64,000 bases of DNA from Erysipelothrix anatis. Its GTDB lineage: Bacteria > Bacillota_I > Bacilli_A > Erysipelotrichales > Erysipelotrichaceae. The notes beneath the pieces are model-generated. The model searched no databases. It saw nothing but the letters and a program-made list of their open reading frames with translations, and was not told where the DNA came from. The DNA lies in contig NZ_WTSX01000001.1 in NCBI RefSeq assembly GCF_009828745.1, positions 1 through 64,000 on the forward strand. Reading direction: 5' to 3'. A program made the position numbers and the translations under genes. Positions 1,479 to 12,063 of this stretch are shown in pieces (the stretch's first letter is position 1; the number at the start of each line of letters is the position of its first letter).

Positions 1479-2198
1479 CTAACGATTGATGAAATCGACA
1501 AAACTGTTTTCAAGCGCATTTTGATACGTACGACCAACCGGTACTACACTACCATCTAATAAAACAATCTCTGATTTTCCAAAAGTTTTTATGTAGGTCA
1601 TGTTTACAATAAATGAACGTTGGACACGGACTAAAGGACTCCCCAGAATTTGCTGCTCCACTTCTGTCATCGTACTGTAAAATTCAATGATTTGCTCCTG
1701 TCGTGTCTTGATTGCAATAATGCGCTTCTTAACTTCGATATAGATAATATCCGAAATTACGAGTGTGTATGACATCCCCTTGATTTCATACATAAACAAT
1801 TGATCACGTGTGATGCTAACATTCTCGATAGACTTCATCAAGACAGATTCAAAGCGCTCGTCAGTGATTGCATATTTAAGTAAGTAATTGGCTGGCATGA
1901 CATCAAATGATTCAAACACATACTCTTTAAGATTTGATAAGAAAATGATTTCAGCTTGGATACCAAGACTTCGAAGTTTGGCCGCTGCATCCAGTCCGTT
2001 CATTTCTCCCATTTGAATATCAAGATAAATAATATCGGGTAACACTTTTATATCATCAAGCATAAAGAAAAGTTCCTCCGCCGATTCGAAGGCTGTAATT
2101 GAAATGTAGAGATTGTGCTTTTCTGCAATTGACTGAATGAGTTTCGCGTATTTCTCTCTAATTTCAGGATCGTCATCGCACAGAAAAATTGTTATCAT
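1479..2198 (-). CDS. LytTR-family (AgrA-like) response regulator, first copy
   Basis: This is a 239-residue DNA-binding response regulator. The start is taken at the ATG that gives MITIFLCDDD because a good AGAGGTGG site sits just upstream; a longer frame reaching 2297 has no such site. The receiver domain carries the acidic pocket DDD (8-10), phospho-acceptor Asp60 in IIYLDIQMGEMNG, and the switch residue in FLSNLKEYVF. The LytTR domain (about 135-238) includes VRVQRSFIVNMTYI. It is the first gene of the operon with the kinase downstream. Three CGTTA repeats lie in its promoter region, which suggests autoregulation. Confidence 0.88.
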   Translation of the reverse strand: MITIFLCDDDPEIREKYAKLIQSIAEKHNLYISITAFESAEELFFMLDDIKVLPDIIYLDIQMGEMNGLDAAAKLRSLGIQAEIIFLSNLKEYVFESFDVMPANYLLKYAITDERFESVLMKSIENVSITRDQLFMYEIKGMSYTLVISDIIYIEVKKRIIAIKTRQEQIIEFYSTMTEVEQQILGSPLVRVQRSFIVNMTYIKTFGKSEIVLLDGSVVPVGRTYQNALENSFVDFINR

Positions 2199-2222
2199 GG
2201 TCCCACCTCTTTGTATTAATAG

Positions 2223-2259
2223 TAACGCAATTTTAACGATATAACAATTATTTATAACG
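2223..2259 (-). promoter_or_regulatory. Candidate LytTR binding repeats before the first regulator
   Basis: On the minus strand CGTTA occurs three times (2255-2259, 2234-2238, 2223-2227), spaced 21 and then 11 bp. LytTR regulators bind pairs of 9-bp repeats containing GTT, about two helical turns apart, so the outer pair fits. The assignment to this operon's own regulator is inferred. Confidence 0.45.
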
Positions 2260-2305
2260 TATTTATGGTTGTACTTACAATACAAATACTTCGACATTAC
2301 GTCAA

Positions 2306-4049: not shown

Positions 4050-4078
4050 TTGCCAACAAAATTGGGGTGTGCTATTAT
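4050..4078 (+). promoter_or_regulatory. Sigma-A promoter of the ABC exporter leader
   Basis: TTGCCA (4050-4055) and TATTAT (4073-4078) are separated by exactly 17 bp. The predicted start near 4085 lies just before the first structured RNA unit, so both RNA units would be in the 5' leader of the exporter mRNA. Confidence 0.75.
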
Positions 4079-4090
4079 CGAGTGAGCAAA

Positions 4091-4180
4091 ATCCCTTTGA
4101 GTTCTCGCCGGATTACTCCAGGACGTTACATGTATTTCGTAGGCCATACGAAGAAATACTTCAAGACGTCTTTTTATTTT
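4091..4180 (+). ncRNA. Riboswitch-like structured leader, unit 1 of a tandem pair
   Basis: A first hairpin pairs GAGT (4099-4102) with ACTC (4115-4118) around a loop containing CGCCGG. The second is a long hairpin closed by AGGACGT (4120-4126) with ACGTCTT (4166-4172). Its upper arm pairs 4132-4138 with 4153-4159, then GTA with TAC, and has a GGCCA apical loop. A T-rich tail follows, so this second hairpin looks like a terminator. The loops GCC and GGC could kiss. Two hairpins, the second a terminator, with loop-loop pairing and a drug exporter downstream resemble the guanidine-IV (mepA) class as I remember it. I cannot verify that assignment. Confidence 0.7.
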
Positions 4181-4194
4181 GCTTGGCAACTAAG

Positions 4195-4287
4195 ATTCCC
4201 TATGAGTTCTCGCCGGACAACTCTAGGACGTTATTGATGCTTCGTAGGCCATACGAAGAAGCATCTATGACGTCCTTTTTATTTTTT
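4195..4287 (+). ncRNA. Riboswitch-like structured leader, unit 2 of a tandem pair
   Basis: This repeats unit 1. The first hairpin is GAGTT (4204-4208) with AACTC (4219-4223) and the same CGCCGG loop. The terminator hairpin is AGGACGT (4225-4231) with ACGTCCT (4270-4276). Its upper arm pairs 4236-4243 with 4258-4265 and keeps the GGCCA loop and a 3-base GAA bulge, and a T run follows. The upper arm differs from unit 1 by compensatory pairs (G-C to A-T, A-T to G-C, T-A to C-G), which supports pairing as RNA. The exporter ribosome site AGAAGGAG follows directly. Confidence 0.75.
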
Positions 4288-4303
4288 AGAAGAAGGAGAC
4301 CCT

Positions 4304-6049
4304 ATGAAATTAGTTAAAAAGTTTTTACAAGAGCACTTCGCCCTCGTTTCTGGAACAATGATCCTACTCTTGATCCAATTAACGGCTACCCTTTACATTC
4401 CGTATTTGGTTGCTCATATCGTTGATGATGGAATTTTAGCCAACGACCTTAATACCATCTACAGTTTAGGATTTGAAATGCTGATTGTGGCTATTATTGG
4501 CGTGATCGCTGCTGTCGCATGCAGTTATTACTCGTCCGTGATTGCTACACGATTTGGTACCGACCTAAGACTTCAAGTCTTCCATAAAGTCCAGGTACTC
4601 TCCGTTAAAGATGTTGAAGATTATGGTACTTCATCGCTCGTATCTCGAATTACCTCTGATGTTGTCAACATCCAGCAAGTTGTTGTCATGTTGTTTCAGA
4701 TGATTCTTCCTGGACCCCTCATCGGTATTGTCTGTATCATTATGTCCTTTATGATTTCACCAACTTTAGGATGGGTGGCACTGATCAGTATTCTTGTCTT
4801 CCTTGGTGCTGCTATTTTGGTTACAAAATTAGCAGTTCCATACATGAATGCAATCCAACATTACCTCGATCGTATGATTCTTGTTTTGCGTGAATTCTTT
4901 GTTGGAGTACGAATTATTCGAGCATTTGACAACTCTGAATTTGAACGCCAACGCACTGATAAAACCTTTGAAGAGCACGCTGAAAACATGATCAAGATTA
5001 ACCGCTTATTCGCCTTCTTGTCTCCCATCGCATATGCGCTTTTAGGATTATCGATGGTAGCAATCCTTTGGTTTGGACTGATTGAAGTTCCAAGTGGTAT
5101 TTTGCAGCTAGGTGAAGTTACAGCCGTCATTGAATACACAACACTCACCATTTTAACCCTAATAATGGCAGCCTTGGTTATCGTTATGATCCCTCGTGCG
5201 TTAGCGGCATTGAGTCGTGTTGATACGCTCCTTGCGATTGAACCAGGAGTATTAGACTCACAAACAGTCCACCCTTTGACACCTGGAAGCAATGATATTG
5301 TTCGTTTTGAACATGTCTTCTTTGGATATGAGGGCGAAGATGGTGATGCATTGGTAGATGTCAGTTTCTTTGTACCCAAAGGACAAACTACAGCGATTAT
5401 CGGTGCTACAGGATCGGGTAAAAGTACGATTGCGAAACTTATTATGCGATTCCACGACGCTACAAACGGACGAATTCTTTTCCAAGATAGCGATGTTCAA
5501 AGTATTTCGCAACATGCCCTTCGTGATGCTGTCAGCTATATTCCCCAAAAGTCGTTTTTGTTTAGTGGTACCGTTCAAGAGAACATCAAATTCCACAAAC
5601 CCAATGGAAGTAACACAGCAATGCGTCAGGCCGCACAAACAGCACAAGCTGCATCCTTTATCGAATCCCTTGAGAAACAATACGATGCCGAAGTTGTTCG
5701 CGGCGGGATGAACTTCTCTGGAGGACAAAAACAGCGAATTAGTATTGCGCGCGCTTTGTATAAGGATGCTGACTTATATGTCTTCGACGATAGTTTCTCT
5801 GCCCTTGACTACAAAACGGATGCGGTACTACGCAAAGCCTTAAAAGAAGATATGCCCGAAGCAACTTATTTAATTATTGCACAACGCGTGAGCACCATTA
5901 TGAATGCAGATCAAATTATTGTGATGGATAAAGGACATGTAGTTGGTATCGGAACACACGCATCCCTCATGCAAACAAGCGATATTTACCGTCAATTTGC
6001 TCAGTCCCAACATATTTTTGATGACATGGAGGAACCCTTAAATGTTTAA
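4304..6049 (+). CDS. Heterodimeric multidrug ABC exporter, degenerate-site half
   Basis: This 581-residue half-transporter has a six-helix membrane domain (about 1-310) and a C-terminal ATPase. Walker A is GATGSGKS (near 367-374) and the signature is the consensus FSGGQKQR (near 471). The catalytic positions are altered: the Walker B carboxylate is Asp496 (FDDS rather than DE) and the switch histidine is Gln527 (IIAQRVST). Such pairs (BmrCD, LmrCD, EfrAB, TM287/288) have one hydrolytic and one degenerate ATP site. The start follows AGAAGGAG. The next gene overlaps it by eight bases. Expression is probably set by the tandem leader RNA. Substrate unknown. Confidence 0.9.
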   Translation: MKLVKKFLQEHFALVSGTMILLLIQLTATLYIPYLVAHIVDDGILANDLNTIYSLGFEMLIVAIIGVIAAVACSYYSSVIATRFGTDLRLQVFHKVQVLSVKDVEDYGTSSLVSRITSDVVNIQQVVVMLFQMILPGPLIGIVCIIMSFMISPTLGWVALISILVFLGAAILVTKLAVPYMNAIQHYLDRMILVLREFFVGVRIIRAFDNSEFERQRTDKTFEEHAENMIKINRLFAFLSPIAYALLGLSMVAILWFGLIEVPSGILQLGEVTAVIEYTTLTILTLIMAALVIVMIPRALAALSRVDTLLAIEPGVLDSQTVHPLTPGSNDIVRFEHVFFGYEGEDGDALVDVSFFVPKGQTTAIIGATGSGKSTIAKLIMRFHDATNGRILFQDSDVQSISQHALRDAVSYIPQKSFLFSGTVQENIKFHKPNGSNTAMRQAAQTAQAASFIESLEKQYDAEVVRGGMNFSGGQKQRISIARALYKDADLYVFDDSFSALDYKTDAVLRKALKEDMPEATYLIIAQRVSTIMNADQIIVMDKGHVVGIGTHASLMQTSDIYRQFAQSQHIFDDMEEPLNV

Positions 6050-7856
6050 GCACAAAAAAACTAGAGTTCAGAAGGTAACCCAACAAGAGCAACCTTCGAA
6101 CATGAAGCATGCTTTCAAATTATTCATTAATCTATTATTAAATTGGAAGGGACGCATCGCCTTAGTTTTGCTTGTTTCCCTACTCGGTAGTATTACCTAT
6201 ACAGTTATCCCTTGGATTATGGGACTCTCGATTGATGCTGTCGCAACGCTAATTAGCACCAATAACTTATCCATTGCTAGTGTTGAAGCAGTTATTATCC
6301 AGCCATTGCTATGGTTGGTCCTTGCATCTTTTTTCTCCTTCTTGTTTTCTTTCATTCAAGAACGCATCATGGCGTCGATTAGTGAACAAGCTGGTACCCA
6401 TCTTCGAAAAATTATTACAGATAAAATGACAACACTTCCGCTACGATTTTATGACGATGTGAAAGTAGGAGAAGTCTTAAGTCGTGTCTCTGTTGATATC
6501 GAACGAGTTGCCGAAATTCTTGTCGTTGGCTTCAATCAATTTATCTCATCATTTTTTAATATTGTGATTGGTTTGATTGTCATGACTCAAATTGCAAGCT
6601 CATTGACACTCTTAATTTTCGCTCTTATTGTTATTAGTGGGTTTGTGACTTATATTATTTCCTTGAAGAGTCAACGATCGTTCCTCGACAATTTCAGTAC
6701 CCTTGCTGATTTCAATAGCTTGGTAGAAGAGTACTTTACGGGGAATGTTATTCTCAAGTCATACAATAAACAAACCTATGCAATGGATACAGTGATTGCT
6801 TCAAATGAACGTCACGAAAAAGCACATCTTAAGGCCATGTTTTTAAACTACGCAATCTATCCCGCAGTTCGCTTCTTAAACCAATTAGCATTTATTGCTA
6901 GTGCTGTGATTGGTGGATATTTCGCATTACGTGGAATACTTAGTGTCGGGATTCTTCAAGCCTACCTCCAATACGTATCCCAAGTTTCTGAGCCGATTAC
7001 AGAAGCTTCCTTTATTATTAACTCATTTCAAGCTGCACTTGCATCGCTAGAGCGGGTCTATGATATTACGGCTTTAGACGACGAACAAGAACATGAAGGT
7101 GTCACACCGAAAATAGACCATCCAGAAGGCGCAATTTCATTTGAAAATGTTGCCTTTGGTTACGGTCCAGATCATTTACTTATGACAGATGTATCATTTG
7201 AGGTTGGTGCCAAACAGACCGTCGCCATTGTGGGTCCAACTGGAGCTGGTAAAACAACCCTTGTGAACTTATTGATGCGTTTCTATGATATTAATGGTGG
7301 TAAAATCTTATTTGATGGTGTCGACACCCAATCAATGACACGTACAGATGTACGAAATCTCTTTGGGATGGTACTTCAGGATACGTGGTTGTTTGAAGGA
7401 ACTGTCGCCGATAACATTGCCTATGGACGAAAAGATGCCTCACGTGAAGAGATTATTGCCGCCGCCAAACTCGCACAAAGTCATGATTTTATCATGCAGA
7501 TGCCTCAGGGTTACAATACCATCATCTCAAGTGATGCCTCGATTGTATCTCAAGGTCAACAACAACTCTTAACGATTGCGCGTGCAGCCCTTGCTAACCC
7601 TGCAGTGATGATTCTTGACGAAGCCACTTCCAATATTGATACCATCACCGAACAGAAAATCCAAACTGCATTGAATGCTCTAATGGAAAATCGTACAAGT
7701 TTTGTGATTGCCCATCGTTTATCAACAATCCGTAATGCCGATATCATTCTCGTGATGAATCGCGGAAATATTATTGAAAGTGGTAATCATGAATCACTCC
7801 TTGAATTGGGTGGTGTTTACGCCGACTTGTATGAAAGTCAATTCACGATTGCATAA
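6042..7856 (+). CDS. Heterodimeric multidrug ABC exporter, catalytic half
   Basis: This 604-residue half-transporter is the partner of the preceding gene. It has a ~30-residue polar N-terminus, six membrane segments (about 30-330) and an ATPase with Walker A GPTGAGKT, Walker B ILDEATSN with the catalytic Glu527, and His558 in IAHRLST. Its signature is degenerate (VSQGQ at 502-506 instead of LSGGQ). The broken signature here and the broken Walker B/H-loop in the partner would fall in the same composite site, which is internally consistent. A GGAGG site lies within the end of the upstream gene. Confidence 0.9.
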   Translation: MFKHKKTRVQKVTQQEQPSNMKHAFKLFINLLLNWKGRIALVLLVSLLGSITYTVIPWIMGLSIDAVATLISTNNLSIASVEAVIIQPLLWLVLASFFSFLFSFIQERIMASISEQAGTHLRKIITDKMTTLPLRFYDDVKVGEVLSRVSVDIERVAEILVVGFNQFISSFFNIVIGLIVMTQIASSLTLLIFALIVISGFVTYIISLKSQRSFLDNFSTLADFNSLVEEYFTGNVILKSYNKQTYAMDTVIASNERHEKAHLKAMFLNYAIYPAVRFLNQLAFIASAVIGGYFALRGILSVGILQAYLQYVSQVSEPITEASFIINSFQAALASLERVYDITALDDEQEHEGVTPKIDHPEGAISFENVAFGYGPDHLLMTDVSFEVGAKQTVAIVGPTGAGKTTLVNLLMRFYDINGGKILFDGVDTQSMTRTDVRNLFGMVLQDTWLFEGTVADNIAYGRKDASREEIIAAAKLAQSHDFIMQMPQGYNTIISSDASIVSQGQQQLLTIARAALANPAVMILDEATSNIDTITEQKIQTALNALMENRTSFVIAHRLSTIRNADIILVMNRGNIIESGNHESLLELGGVYADLYESQFTIA

Positions 7857-9141: not shown

Positions 9142-10518
9142 CTAAAGTGTAATCATATATGCAATGGAAACTAATGTAATCCCATGCATAATCCAACCTA
9201 ATTCTTTATGTTTTCCTGCAAAAATCATGCAAAGTTCATACGATACAAATCCCATGGTAAGACCCAATGCAATAGACCCAGTTAACGGCATCATGACAAT
9301 TGTGATGAAAGACGGCACAATAACTTCATAACCACCTCGCCAATCAATATTCACAATATTTTGCATCATGAAGATTCCAATAACGACCATAGCCGGCGTT
9401 GTGACTGCCGCAGTAACTAAAGATAGCAATGGATAGATAAAGACTGACAATAGGAATAAACAAGCCGTGACGACTGCCATAAGCCCTGTCCGCGCACCAT
9501 TGATGATTCCGGAAACGGATTCAATGTATGTAGAGAGATTCGATGTCCCTAAAACCCCTCCGACAAATGTTCCAACTGCATCCGCAACATAAATACGATG
9601 ATTGTTTTCAAATGCTTCCGCAGGCAAATCAGGAATTTGTGATGCAGCCGCTGATAATGTCGTTGCTGTACCAAAGAAATCCAAAAACAGGAACGTTAAG
9701 ACAACTATGATTGCTTGTGGATTTAAAAGTTCCCCAAGATTTTTAAATCCAACAAACAATGTATTATCAATCATCGATTGCATCGGACCCACTGGCACGA
9801 CAATCGGACTTCCTGCTGGCAATTGTGGCAAGGTTGCCGCAATTTCTGGTGCCATCGATAACCATCCCATATCAACACCTAAGCGAATTAGAAGACCACA
9901 AACTGCTGCACCAATCATTCCAAAGAAGACGGCATATTGATTCTTCTTCACGAGGAAGAATGCGGCTGTAAGTACACCTACTATCGCAATGACAACGTTT
10001 GGATTGTGGAATCCACCAAACGTAATAAACATACTTGAATCAGGAACGATTATCCCAGCATTTTTAAAACTAACAAATGCGATAAATAATCCCAATCCAA
10101 CATTCCCAGCTTGTTTAATTGGCAGTGGGATACCTTTAATGATTTTGGCACGAATCCCTGAGAATGAAAGCATGATAAACAAGACAGATGAAACAAGTAC
10201 TGCCGCTAACGCAACTTCCCATGCCATCCCCATTCCCAATACAACACTAAATGCAAAGAAGGCATTCATCGACATACATGGCGCTAATCCTAACGGAAAG
10301 CGTGCATACAAACCCATAATGAGCATTGCAATTGCCGATGAGAGTATTGTTGCCATGAAGACTGCATCTTCGGGCATACCTGCATTCCCCAAAATAATCG
10401 GATTCACAAAAATGACATAAGACATTGACAGGAAAGCGGTAAGACCCCCTGCAAATTCCCGTTTGATTGTTGACCCTGATTCCTCAATTCTAAAATACGT
10501 ATTCAACCATGTTTTCAT
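9142..10518 (-). CDS. pbuG: AzgA-type (NCS2) purine permease, guanine/hypoxanthine family
   Basis: This is a 458-residue polytopic membrane protein. The N-terminus TYFRIEESGSTIKREFAGG and the following LTAFLSMSYVIFVNP are hallmarks of the AzgA/PbuG branch of purine transporters. FFGTATTLSAAA marks the central conserved region. It is the first gene behind a purine riboswitch and is followed by xpt. The ribosome site AAAAGGAGGAG is strong. Substrate preference (guanine/hypoxanthine versus adenine) is inferred from the family and the riboswitch. Confidence 0.88.
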   Translation of the reverse strand: MKTWLNTYFRIEESGSTIKREFAGGLTAFLSMSYVIFVNPIILGNAGMPEDAVFMATILSSAIAMLIMGLYARFPLGLAPCMSMNAFFAFSVVLGMGMAWEVALAAVLVSSVLFIMLSFSGIRAKIIKGIPLPIKQAGNVGLGLFIAFVSFKNAGIIVPDSSMFITFGGFHNPNVVIAIVGVLTAAFFLVKKNQYAVFFGMIGAAVCGLLIRLGVDMGWLSMAPEIAATLPQLPAGSPIVVPVGPMQSMIDNTLFVGFKNLGELLNPQAIIVVLTFLFLDFFGTATTLSAAASQIPDLPAEAFENNHRIYVADAVGTFVGGVLGTSNLSTYIESVSGIINGARTGLMAVVTACLFLLSVFIYPLLSLVTAAVTTPAMVVIGIFMMQNIVNIDWRGGYEVIVPSFITIVMMPLTGSIALGLTMGFVSYELCMIFAGKHKELGWIMHGITLVSIAYMITL

Positions 10519-10560: not shown

Positions 10561-10593
10561 AGTATCAAAAGGTACGTAAAAACGCCTTTGAAA

Positions 10594-10667
10594 CTAGTGC
10601 CATAGTACACGACTTTACGGGTCATGAGTAGAGACTTCCGGACCTTATTTCCAGAATTATATGGTAG
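10594..10667 (-). ncRNA. Purine riboswitch, guanine-type aptamer
   Basis: Read on the minus strand, P1 pairs CCATA with TATGG and J1/2 contains TATAAT. P2 pairs TCTGGA with TCCGGA around AATAAGG. J2/3 is TCTCTACT, and P3 pairs CATGAC with GTCGTG around CCGTAAA. The base just before the 3' strand of P1, equivalent to position 74 of the xpt aptamer, is C (complement of G10605), which specifies guanine or hypoxanthine rather than adenine. The loops keep the GG/CC contacts. It controls pbuG-xpt. Confidence 0.93.
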
Positions 10668-10680
10668 TTTTCATAGCGTA

Positions 10681-10709
10681 ATGGTAACACTGTAAATGTA
10701 GTGTGTCAA
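10681..10709 (-). promoter_or_regulatory. Promoter of the pbuG-xpt operon
   Basis: On the minus strand TTGACA (10709-10704) and TACCAT (10686-10681) are separated by 17 bp. Transcription would begin a few bases upstream of the riboswitch aptamer. Confidence 0.75.
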
Positions 10710-10743: not shown

Positions 10744-12063
10744 TCAATATGGAATTGTGATGTTCACAAGAAACTGCCGCAACACGGGATCGGTTTTTAT
10801 TTTCAGAATTCCTTCAGATTTTTCTACAATTTCCCGGACAATTTGCAAGCCAATACCATGAATATCGGGACTATCTTTAGTACTCAAGTATTGACCGTGC
10901 TTATAGATTGGCTCCGTCACGTATTGATTTGTAACCTCTAAAGACAGCCAACGATGATTCACCCTACTTCTAATTTTAATCCACCGATCACAAGGATTTG
11001 AAATGGGTAACGATGCTTCGATAGCATTATTGATAATATTCGTAAGAACTCGCAACATGTTGAGTTCCGTGAGTTTAAAAGTATCTGGTAGCTGCAAATC
11101 CAACTGATAGTTGATTTCCAAGTCATCACAACGCACTTTAAAATCTTTAATGATTGCATCCAGCAAGTGACTCTGAGAATACGGCTCTAAAGCCTGCGTC
11201 TCTTGAAAGGAGTCATGAGACTGTTGAATGATATTTTTTGCGCCAACAATTTGTTCTTCAGCAATCAAATGTTGGATTGTTTGAAGCATTGCACGATAGT
11301 CATGTTTAAATTTCTTATATTCTTCCAGTAAATCTTGATACGATTCATAATGTTGGACTTGCATTTTCAGTTGGTTTTCAACTTTCGCAGTGTACCGGGC
11401 ATTTTCTAATAATGACGCACCACGAATGGCATCATTCCAAGACACACTCAATATCACAAAAATAAAAACTGAAGCACTTGCATATAATAAATTAAACCAA
11501 TGTATTTCATTGTCTAAAAACCGACCATCATTCACTATTAAAAGATACACCATCATAATCAGTTCGATACGGAGAATATGCTTTAATTTCATGGTATTTC
11601 GTAGAAACATTTTGATATTCATATTAACATCGAGTACTTGCGAAAGAGCATACGTTAAAATTGCGAGAATGCTATAGGATGCTAAAAAGATTGTCCATCG
11701 CGTGAATGAATATGATAAAACAAAAAATGTTGTCTTTTGCCAAATCATTGCAGTTGTTGCTGCTAAAAATCCACGGATCGTATAGAACGAAACGACGGGC
11801 AAAAAACTAATAGTCAAAACATTCAACGTCGGTATTATAAAGAGTATCCGAGCCATGAACATAAGATACAAAAACATGATAAACGGACCTAAATGTGTAA
11901 AACTAAAACGATTGATTAAAGCAAAGACGACCCCATAGATGATAAGTAAGAGGCCTTCAATAACTTCCGGTACTGCACGCCTCACATAATAATGAGATAC
12001 AATCCTTAACCATAAGTGACCACTGAACATTAAGACAGTAAATAACACGAGATTGATGATCAT
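10744..12063 (-). CDS. AgrC-like sensor histidine kinase (GHKL family), second copy
   Basis: This 439-residue kinase has the same length and layout as the one at 150-1469: a multi-helix N-terminal sensor (to about 205), a linker, the H-box FKHDYRAML with His254, the N-box NIINNAIEAS and the G-box DIHGIGLQIVREI. The linker ENARYTAKVENQLKM is nearly identical in the two paralogues. Its ATG overlaps the regulator's TGA (ATGA). All kinase residues are intact although its cognate regulator has lost the phospho-acceptor. It may signal to the first regulator instead, but that is speculation. Confidence 0.87.
   Translation of the reverse strand: MIINLVLFTVLMFSGHLWLRIVSHYYVRRAVPEVIEGLLLIIYGVVFALINRFSFTHLGPFIMFLYLMFMARILFIIPTLNVLTISFLPVVSFYTIRGFLAATTAMIWQKTTFFVLSYSFTRWTIFLASYSILAILTYALSQVLDVNMNIKMFLRNTMKLKHILRIELIMMVYLLIVNDGRFLDNEIHWFNLLYASASVFIFVILSVSWNDAIRGASLLENARYTAKVENQLKMQVQHYESYQDLLEEYKKFKHDYRAMLQTIQHLIAEEQIVGAKNIIQQSHDSFQETQALEPYSQSHLLDAIIKDFKVRCDDLEINYQLDLQLPDTFKLTELNMLRVLTNIINNAIEASLPISNPCDRWIKIRSRVNHRWLSLEVTNQYVTEPIYKHGQYLSTKDSPDIHGIGLQIVREIVEKSEGILKIKTDPVLRQFLVNITIPY

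Follow-up and report, generated by a model that had tools for sequence, protein, structure and literature searches.

How is transcription of the heterodimeric ABC exporter of Erysipelothrix anatis controlled? The question is raised by a leader at positions 4091-4287 (forward strand) of the window, by which we mean the whole stretch analysed, the first 64,000 nucleotides of contig NZ_WTSX01000001.1 (assembly GCF_009828745.1, 2.19 Mb in 29 contigs, which was the E. anatis genome examined). The original prediction, made from the letters of the DNA, saw in this leader a tandem terminator-type riboswitch resembling the guanidine-IV (mepA) class, and supposed that it might be a two-copy version serving an ABC exporter. 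Our results bear out the two copies and the ABC exporter, and indicate that two complete guanidine-IV-type riboswitches in series very probably control transcription of the exporter operon.

Architecture of the leader

Two units of about 86 nucleotides lie within the leader, each made of a short hairpin with a CGCCGG loop (P1), a long hairpin (P2) and a T run. From the start of P1 to the end of the U-tract, unit 1 spans 4099-4180 and unit 2 spans 4204-4287, both on the forward strand; drawn with other limits, the units run 4093-4179 and 4198-4283. In unit 1, P1 occupies 4099-4118, with the hexaloop CGCCGG at 4106-4111 and the kissing triplet GCC at 4107-4109; P2 with its U-tract, an intrinsic terminator, occupies 4121-4180, with the apical loop GUAGGCCAUACGAA at 4139-4152 and the kissing triplet GGC at 4142-4144. 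The same parts recur in unit 2, where P1 (4204-4223) has its CGCCGG hexaloop at 4211-4216 and its GCC at 4212-4214, and the terminator P2 with its U-tract (4226-4287) has the apical loop GUAGGCCAUACGAA at 4244-4257 and its GGC at 4247-4249. Sequence, folding and covariation all support the P1 assignments. The terminator loop had at first been taken for the five nucleotides GGCCA, which was not so: P2 is capped by a conserved apical stretch of 14 nucleotides, GUAGGC(C/A)A(U/C/A)ACGAA, whose GGC is able to kiss the GCC of the P1 loop.

Folding and model scores agree with this anatomy. Against 200 shuffled versions, unit 2 folds far better (z -6.1, no shuffle equalling it); for unit 1 the advantage is moderate (z -2.3, equalled by four of 200). 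A covariance model built without unit 1 scored that unit at 75 bits, and the broad model R3, whose build included both units, gave the two of them 92.5 and 73.6 bits, the next match in the window reaching 21 bits. A loose two-loop pattern matched the two units and nothing else in the genome. The arrangement of two hairpin-plus-terminator units in series is thus confirmed by sequence, shuffles and covariance-model scores. The compensatory changes that had been noticed between the upper arms of the two units are also real, and the same pairs covary across species. A reverse-strand match at 4218-4315 was rejected as a mirror of the terminator stem.

The signals expected on either side of the leader were found. 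Upstream, a consensus scan located a sigma-A type promoter at 4050-4078 on the forward strand, TTGCCA-17-TATTAT, which matches 10 of 12 consensus positions and has TG before the -10 hexamer. Downstream, on the same strand, the ribosome binding site AAGGAGA (4293-4299) precedes the first exporter gene. This gene (4304-6049, forward strand) encodes subunit 1, of 581 amino acids, whose nearest solved relatives are ABC exporters, including TM287/288 (3qf4); the second (6042-7856, forward strand) encodes subunit 2, of 604 amino acids, also a relative of solved ABC exporters by sequence. The two genes overlap by eight bases.

Relation to the guanidine-IV riboswitches

Away from the ABC exporter, the first match was upstream of a MATE gene (genome G178). 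With models R2 and R3, members were then found before MATE, SMR/Gdx, PNPOx-like, B3/4 and PnuC-like genes in Erysipelotrichales and in other families of Bacilli; the assignments to PnuC, and to MATE apart from loci L213 and L221, come from reading the sequences and not from a family search. One study links sugE (SMR), MATE and PnuC genes to guanidine-IV riboswitches (PMC7736828), and another places B3/4 (CtdA) proteins under guanidine-I and guanidine-IV riboswitches (PMC10018355).

Covariation in the homologous leaders is present in both stems and in the kissing pair. In an alignment of 15 sequences, 93.4% of the pair cells are standard and 21 of the 24 pairs show two-sided changes; the stem covariation score is 0.80, where shuffles give 0.28 and slid controls 0.15 or less, though fitting the alignment to the model biases this result in favour of the structure. 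For the kissing interaction, 30 units were compared at loop position 2 of P1 and at the final Y of AGGY: the pair is G-C in 22 and A-U in eight, with no mismatch; as the units are related, the Fisher p of 2e-7 serves only as an indication. In the guanidine-IV RNA of C. botulinum, the kissing loop contains the pairs A29-U72 and C30-G71, and the double mutant A29G/U72C restores kissing (PMC11611296). The covarying kissing pair of our units corresponds to A29-U72.

The original prediction had also proposed a search with Rfam models, guanidine-IV in particular. Run with Rfam 15 at gathering and relaxed thresholds, it returned only chance matches at the E. anatis site; the canonical homologues tested (eight loci) gave no match either, and Rfam 15 appears to lack a model able to detect them, so that the silence of Rfam on the units is uninformative and is not evidence against the assignment.

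Repeated short hairpins followed by a terminator also occur in protein-controlled leaders, and this was counted in favour of a protein-dependent antiterminator or a leader-peptide attenuator in place of a ligand-binding RNA. No leader open reading frame, however, is conserved among the four exporter leaders described below, and both the covariation between the loops and the variety of unrelated gene classes served are as in a riboswitch class that has been validated. Control of either of these kinds is therefore very improbable. From the shared gene set, the stem covariation and the match of the kissing pair we conclude that the element is a member of the guanidine-IV superfamily; the suspected likeness to the mepA motif (GGAM-1) held in its loops, its terminator, its covarying kissing pair and the genes that follow its homologues.

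Several observations were made along the way on the wider group. About 20 guanidine-IV-type leaders were collected from Erysipelotrichales and other families of Bacilli (L213, L221, L223-L227, L229-L241, L246 and L247). The A-U form of the kissing pair occurs in the PnuC-linked members and in one MATE-linked member (L231), and the G-C form in the others. Three guanidine-IV-type leaders (L220, L222 and L229) precede a gene for a PNPOx-like flavoprotein, a class not named in the accessible parts of the guanidine-IV literature. In four more (L236 and L238-L240), before SMR and MATE genes, the second loop ends in GCA or G and not in GAA, and these may be further variants of the sensing loop.

Other candidates were discarded. 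The sugE gene on a P. bifermentans plasmid has a guanidine-I and not a guanidine-IV riboswitch. L228, a reverse-strand match at L212, and L242-L245 were set aside for want of the CGCCGG loop or of the context. A loose loop pattern run over 146 genomes of the family gave mostly chance matches, a reversed control yielding comparable numbers, and in viral contigs a pattern scan met so many chance matches that it was left out of account.

Conservation of the tandem and its link with the exporter

Related genomes had been suggested as the place to look for the unit upstream of ABC exporters, and there it was found, in three. E. aquatica, the nearest named relative found, has the same tandem before an orthologous exporter (88% identity). 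A more distant Erysipelothrix (G083) has one unit before its exporter (63% protein identity), among different neighbouring genes. With the covariance model R1, built from four ABC-linked units, one more came to light outside the family: it scores 93.6 bits and lies upstream of the exporter orthologue in genome G317 (family f11; 59-61% protein identity). When 272 genomes of the class were searched, no additional exporter reached the cut-off, and the leader is present at all four exporters found with about 60% identity or more. No unit was seen in the upstream regions examined of paralogous Erysipelothrix ABC exporters (at most 40% identity), where a divergent regulator-like gene stands instead. 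The presence of the leader at four of four orthologues and its absence from the paralogues examined indicate that leader and exporter travel together, probably by horizontal transfer. An ABC pair on an E. faecalis plasmid (42%) was rejected, as it lies downstream of a MarR regulator and has no unit.

Between E. anatis and E. aquatica, unit 1 is 79% identical, unit 2 94%, and the promoter together with the DNA up to unit 1 91%, whereas the upstream intergenic DNA is 48% and the third codon positions of the exporter gene are 49% identical. Conservation of the leader exceeds the neutral level. Two units were met at only two of the 28 unit-bearing loci, those of E. anatis and E. aquatica. As the second unit most resembles its counterpart in the other species, and the linkers are alike too, the duplication probably predates the split of the two species.

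The lower identity of unit 1 could be taken to mean that it is a decaying duplicate and that unit 2 alone regulates. The first terminator is indeed the weaker one in both species, with P2 stretch energies of -16.1 (unit 1) and -28.3 kcal/mol (unit 2) in E. anatis and of -21.0 and -29.1 kcal/mol in E. aquatica, and P1 of unit 1 has a U-U mismatch in E. anatis. Nevertheless, unit 1 is conserved far above the flanking DNA and the third codon positions, the loop nucleotides that matter for its function are retained in both species, and the changes in its stems are largely compensatory. We consider decay of unit 1 unlikely, and treat the leader as two complete riboswitches in what follows.

The sensing loop and the ligand

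The ABC-linked units share a change in the second loop. All six, from four loci in two families, have five nucleotides (NANAC) between AGGC and GAA, an arrangement seen in none of the other 24 units, all of which have four (CNNN, mostly with A or U last; AGGY-CNNW-GAA). The second-loop positions named for the L. lactis riboswitch in PMC7736828 (G62, G66, U67, A71 and G72) fit a loop of the form C-G-U-A-G-G-Y-C-N-N-A-G-A-A, a numbering deduced from the mutant names in that text and not from the published consensus figure. On this deduced numbering, G62, G66 and Y67 are present in the ABC-linked units, and G72 is kept if the loop is anchored at its 3' end and is C if it is anchored at its 5' end.

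Several features count against the guanidine-IV-type explanation, as do the fitting of the alignments to the models and the indirect origin of the numbering. C68, otherwise invariant after AGGY, is replaced by A in two of the six ABC-linked units. With the loop anchored at its 5' end, the extra nucleotide brings C to the position of G72, and the L. lactis mutation G72C abolishes guanidine binding and regulation (PMC7736828). An ABC exporter, moreover, is not named as a guanidine-IV target in the available text of the guanidine-IV literature. Guanidine, by analogy the leading candidate, is likely but unproven as the ligand, because the loop change touches G72.

It has to be considered, then, whether the exporter leaders are guanidine-IV-like switches with a sensing loop changed for another ligand, such as a guanidino compound of larger size or a drug-like cation that the pump exports. 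The spacer of five nucleotides ending in AC is confined to the ABC-linked units (six of six, none of 24 others) despite the 49% third-position identity, a CGU/ACG mini-helix is possible in all six, and loop change and gene context go together, an argument used for the Gd4v motif (PMC9788692). Yet the G after the spacer, the GAA and all the kissing nucleotides are kept, the total of 14 loop nucleotides is that of ordinary members with GUU-AGGC-CAUA-GAA, and the units may share an origin, in which case the correlation may be a single event. We give a changed specificity a serious chance, if one that falls short of even. In a fuller form of this idea, the ABC-linked subgroup would be a new ligand-specificity variant in which an insertion of one nucleotide retunes the sensor to what the exporter transports, with doubling in two species making it a pseudo-cooperative gate; this we advance only tentatively, as possible but rather doubtful.

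The mini-helix of three base pairs, which would enclose the kissing triplet, also bears on another reading, in which the units would fall within Gd4v, the published variant motif with an orphan ligand, instead of guanidine-IV proper or some third subgroup. Such a helix atop the terminator, and the C that takes the position of G72 on 5' anchoring, could suit Gd4v as its text describes it. In the one unit computed, however, the mini-helix fold (-7.2 kcal/mol) is predicted to be 2.6 kcal/mol less stable than the open loop (-9.8 kcal/mol). The bulge opposite the pseudoknot-forming region, which the same text describes, suggests that the Gd4v pseudoknot lies below the extra hairpin, whereas here the GGC would sit inside the loop of the mini-helix. 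The genes named with Gd4v are transaminases, GNAT and MATE, with ABC exporters absent from the main text as available (PMC9788692), while an ABC exporter follows the units at all four loci, so that the gene association of Gd4v is not reproduced. Identity with Gd4v is thus improbable, and the guanidine-IV-type reading of the units is kept below.

Proposed mode of action

By analogy with guanidine-IV, the leader is most likely a transcriptional ON switch. In each unit, the GCC of the P1 loop and the GGC of the P2 apical loop would form a kissing pair stabilised by a small cation as ligand, probably guanidine itself or a guanidino compound close to it. In this docked state, closure of P2 would be incomplete and RNA polymerase would read through; with no ligand, P2 would close and transcription would stop. 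If the two units act independently, the polymerase must pass two terminators in a row, and since a full-length transcript needs read-through twice, a lower basal level and a steeper, 'pseudo-cooperative' dose response are expected.

The pump itself may export the ligand that the leader senses. No SMR/Gdx gene was detectable in the four exporter-bearing genomes, E. anatis included, and for this reason the ABC exporter could stand in for SMR/Gdx, a point that speaks for guanidine as the ligand.

Other features of the window

A purine riboswitch (RF00167, 67.7 bits) lies at 10583-10684 on the reverse strand, directly upstream of a permease-like gene (9142-10518, reverse strand) that looks like a purine permease. 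Two similar genes of 439 amino acids, at 150-1469 and 10744-12063 on the reverse strand, were read by eye as AgrC-like sensor kinases, and a gene like those of LytTR-type response regulators, also read by eye (1479-2297, reverse strand), adjoins the first of them.

Comparison with known systems

The E. anatis leader shares with the guanidine-IV riboswitches (mepA motif, GGAM-1) an architecture of two hairpins, the second an intrinsic terminator, a loop-loop pair of the form RCC/GGY, conserved loops like CGCCGG and UAGGY...GAA, and a place upstream of exporter genes. It differs from them in having two complete units in series and an ABC exporter as its target, and the ABC-linked units differ in having five instead of four nucleotides between AGGY and GAA. 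The ABC-linked units and the Gd4v motif are alike in that both are built like guanidine-IV but have an altered sensing loop, and with it another gene context; the gene classes are not the same in the two, and the extra hairpin described in the text for Gd4v has no obvious match in the ABC-linked units.

Pseudo-cooperative tandems, such as those of the thiamine pyrophosphate (TPP) riboswitch, likewise place two complete switches of one class, each with its terminator, before one operon. In contrast, a survey of tandem riboswitches published in 2022 never found guanidine-IV in tandem, nor a tandem in any of the four guanidine classes (PMC9481103). Both subunits of the E. anatis exporter are relatives by sequence of the heterodimeric ABC exporters of the TM287/288 type, and differ in that their genes are preceded by a riboswitch-type leader.

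What is new here is a guanidine-IV-type tandem, an ABC exporter as its target, and a loop change specific to one subgroup. Given that survey, no earlier tandem is known for any of the guanidine riboswitches, so that the E. anatis leader would be the first, and it would tie a heterodimeric ABC exporter to the export of guanidino compounds in organisms with no detectable SMR/Gdx exporter. The loop change, for its part, offers a compact and testable case of a small RNA sensor whose specificity may shift in step with the gene it controls.
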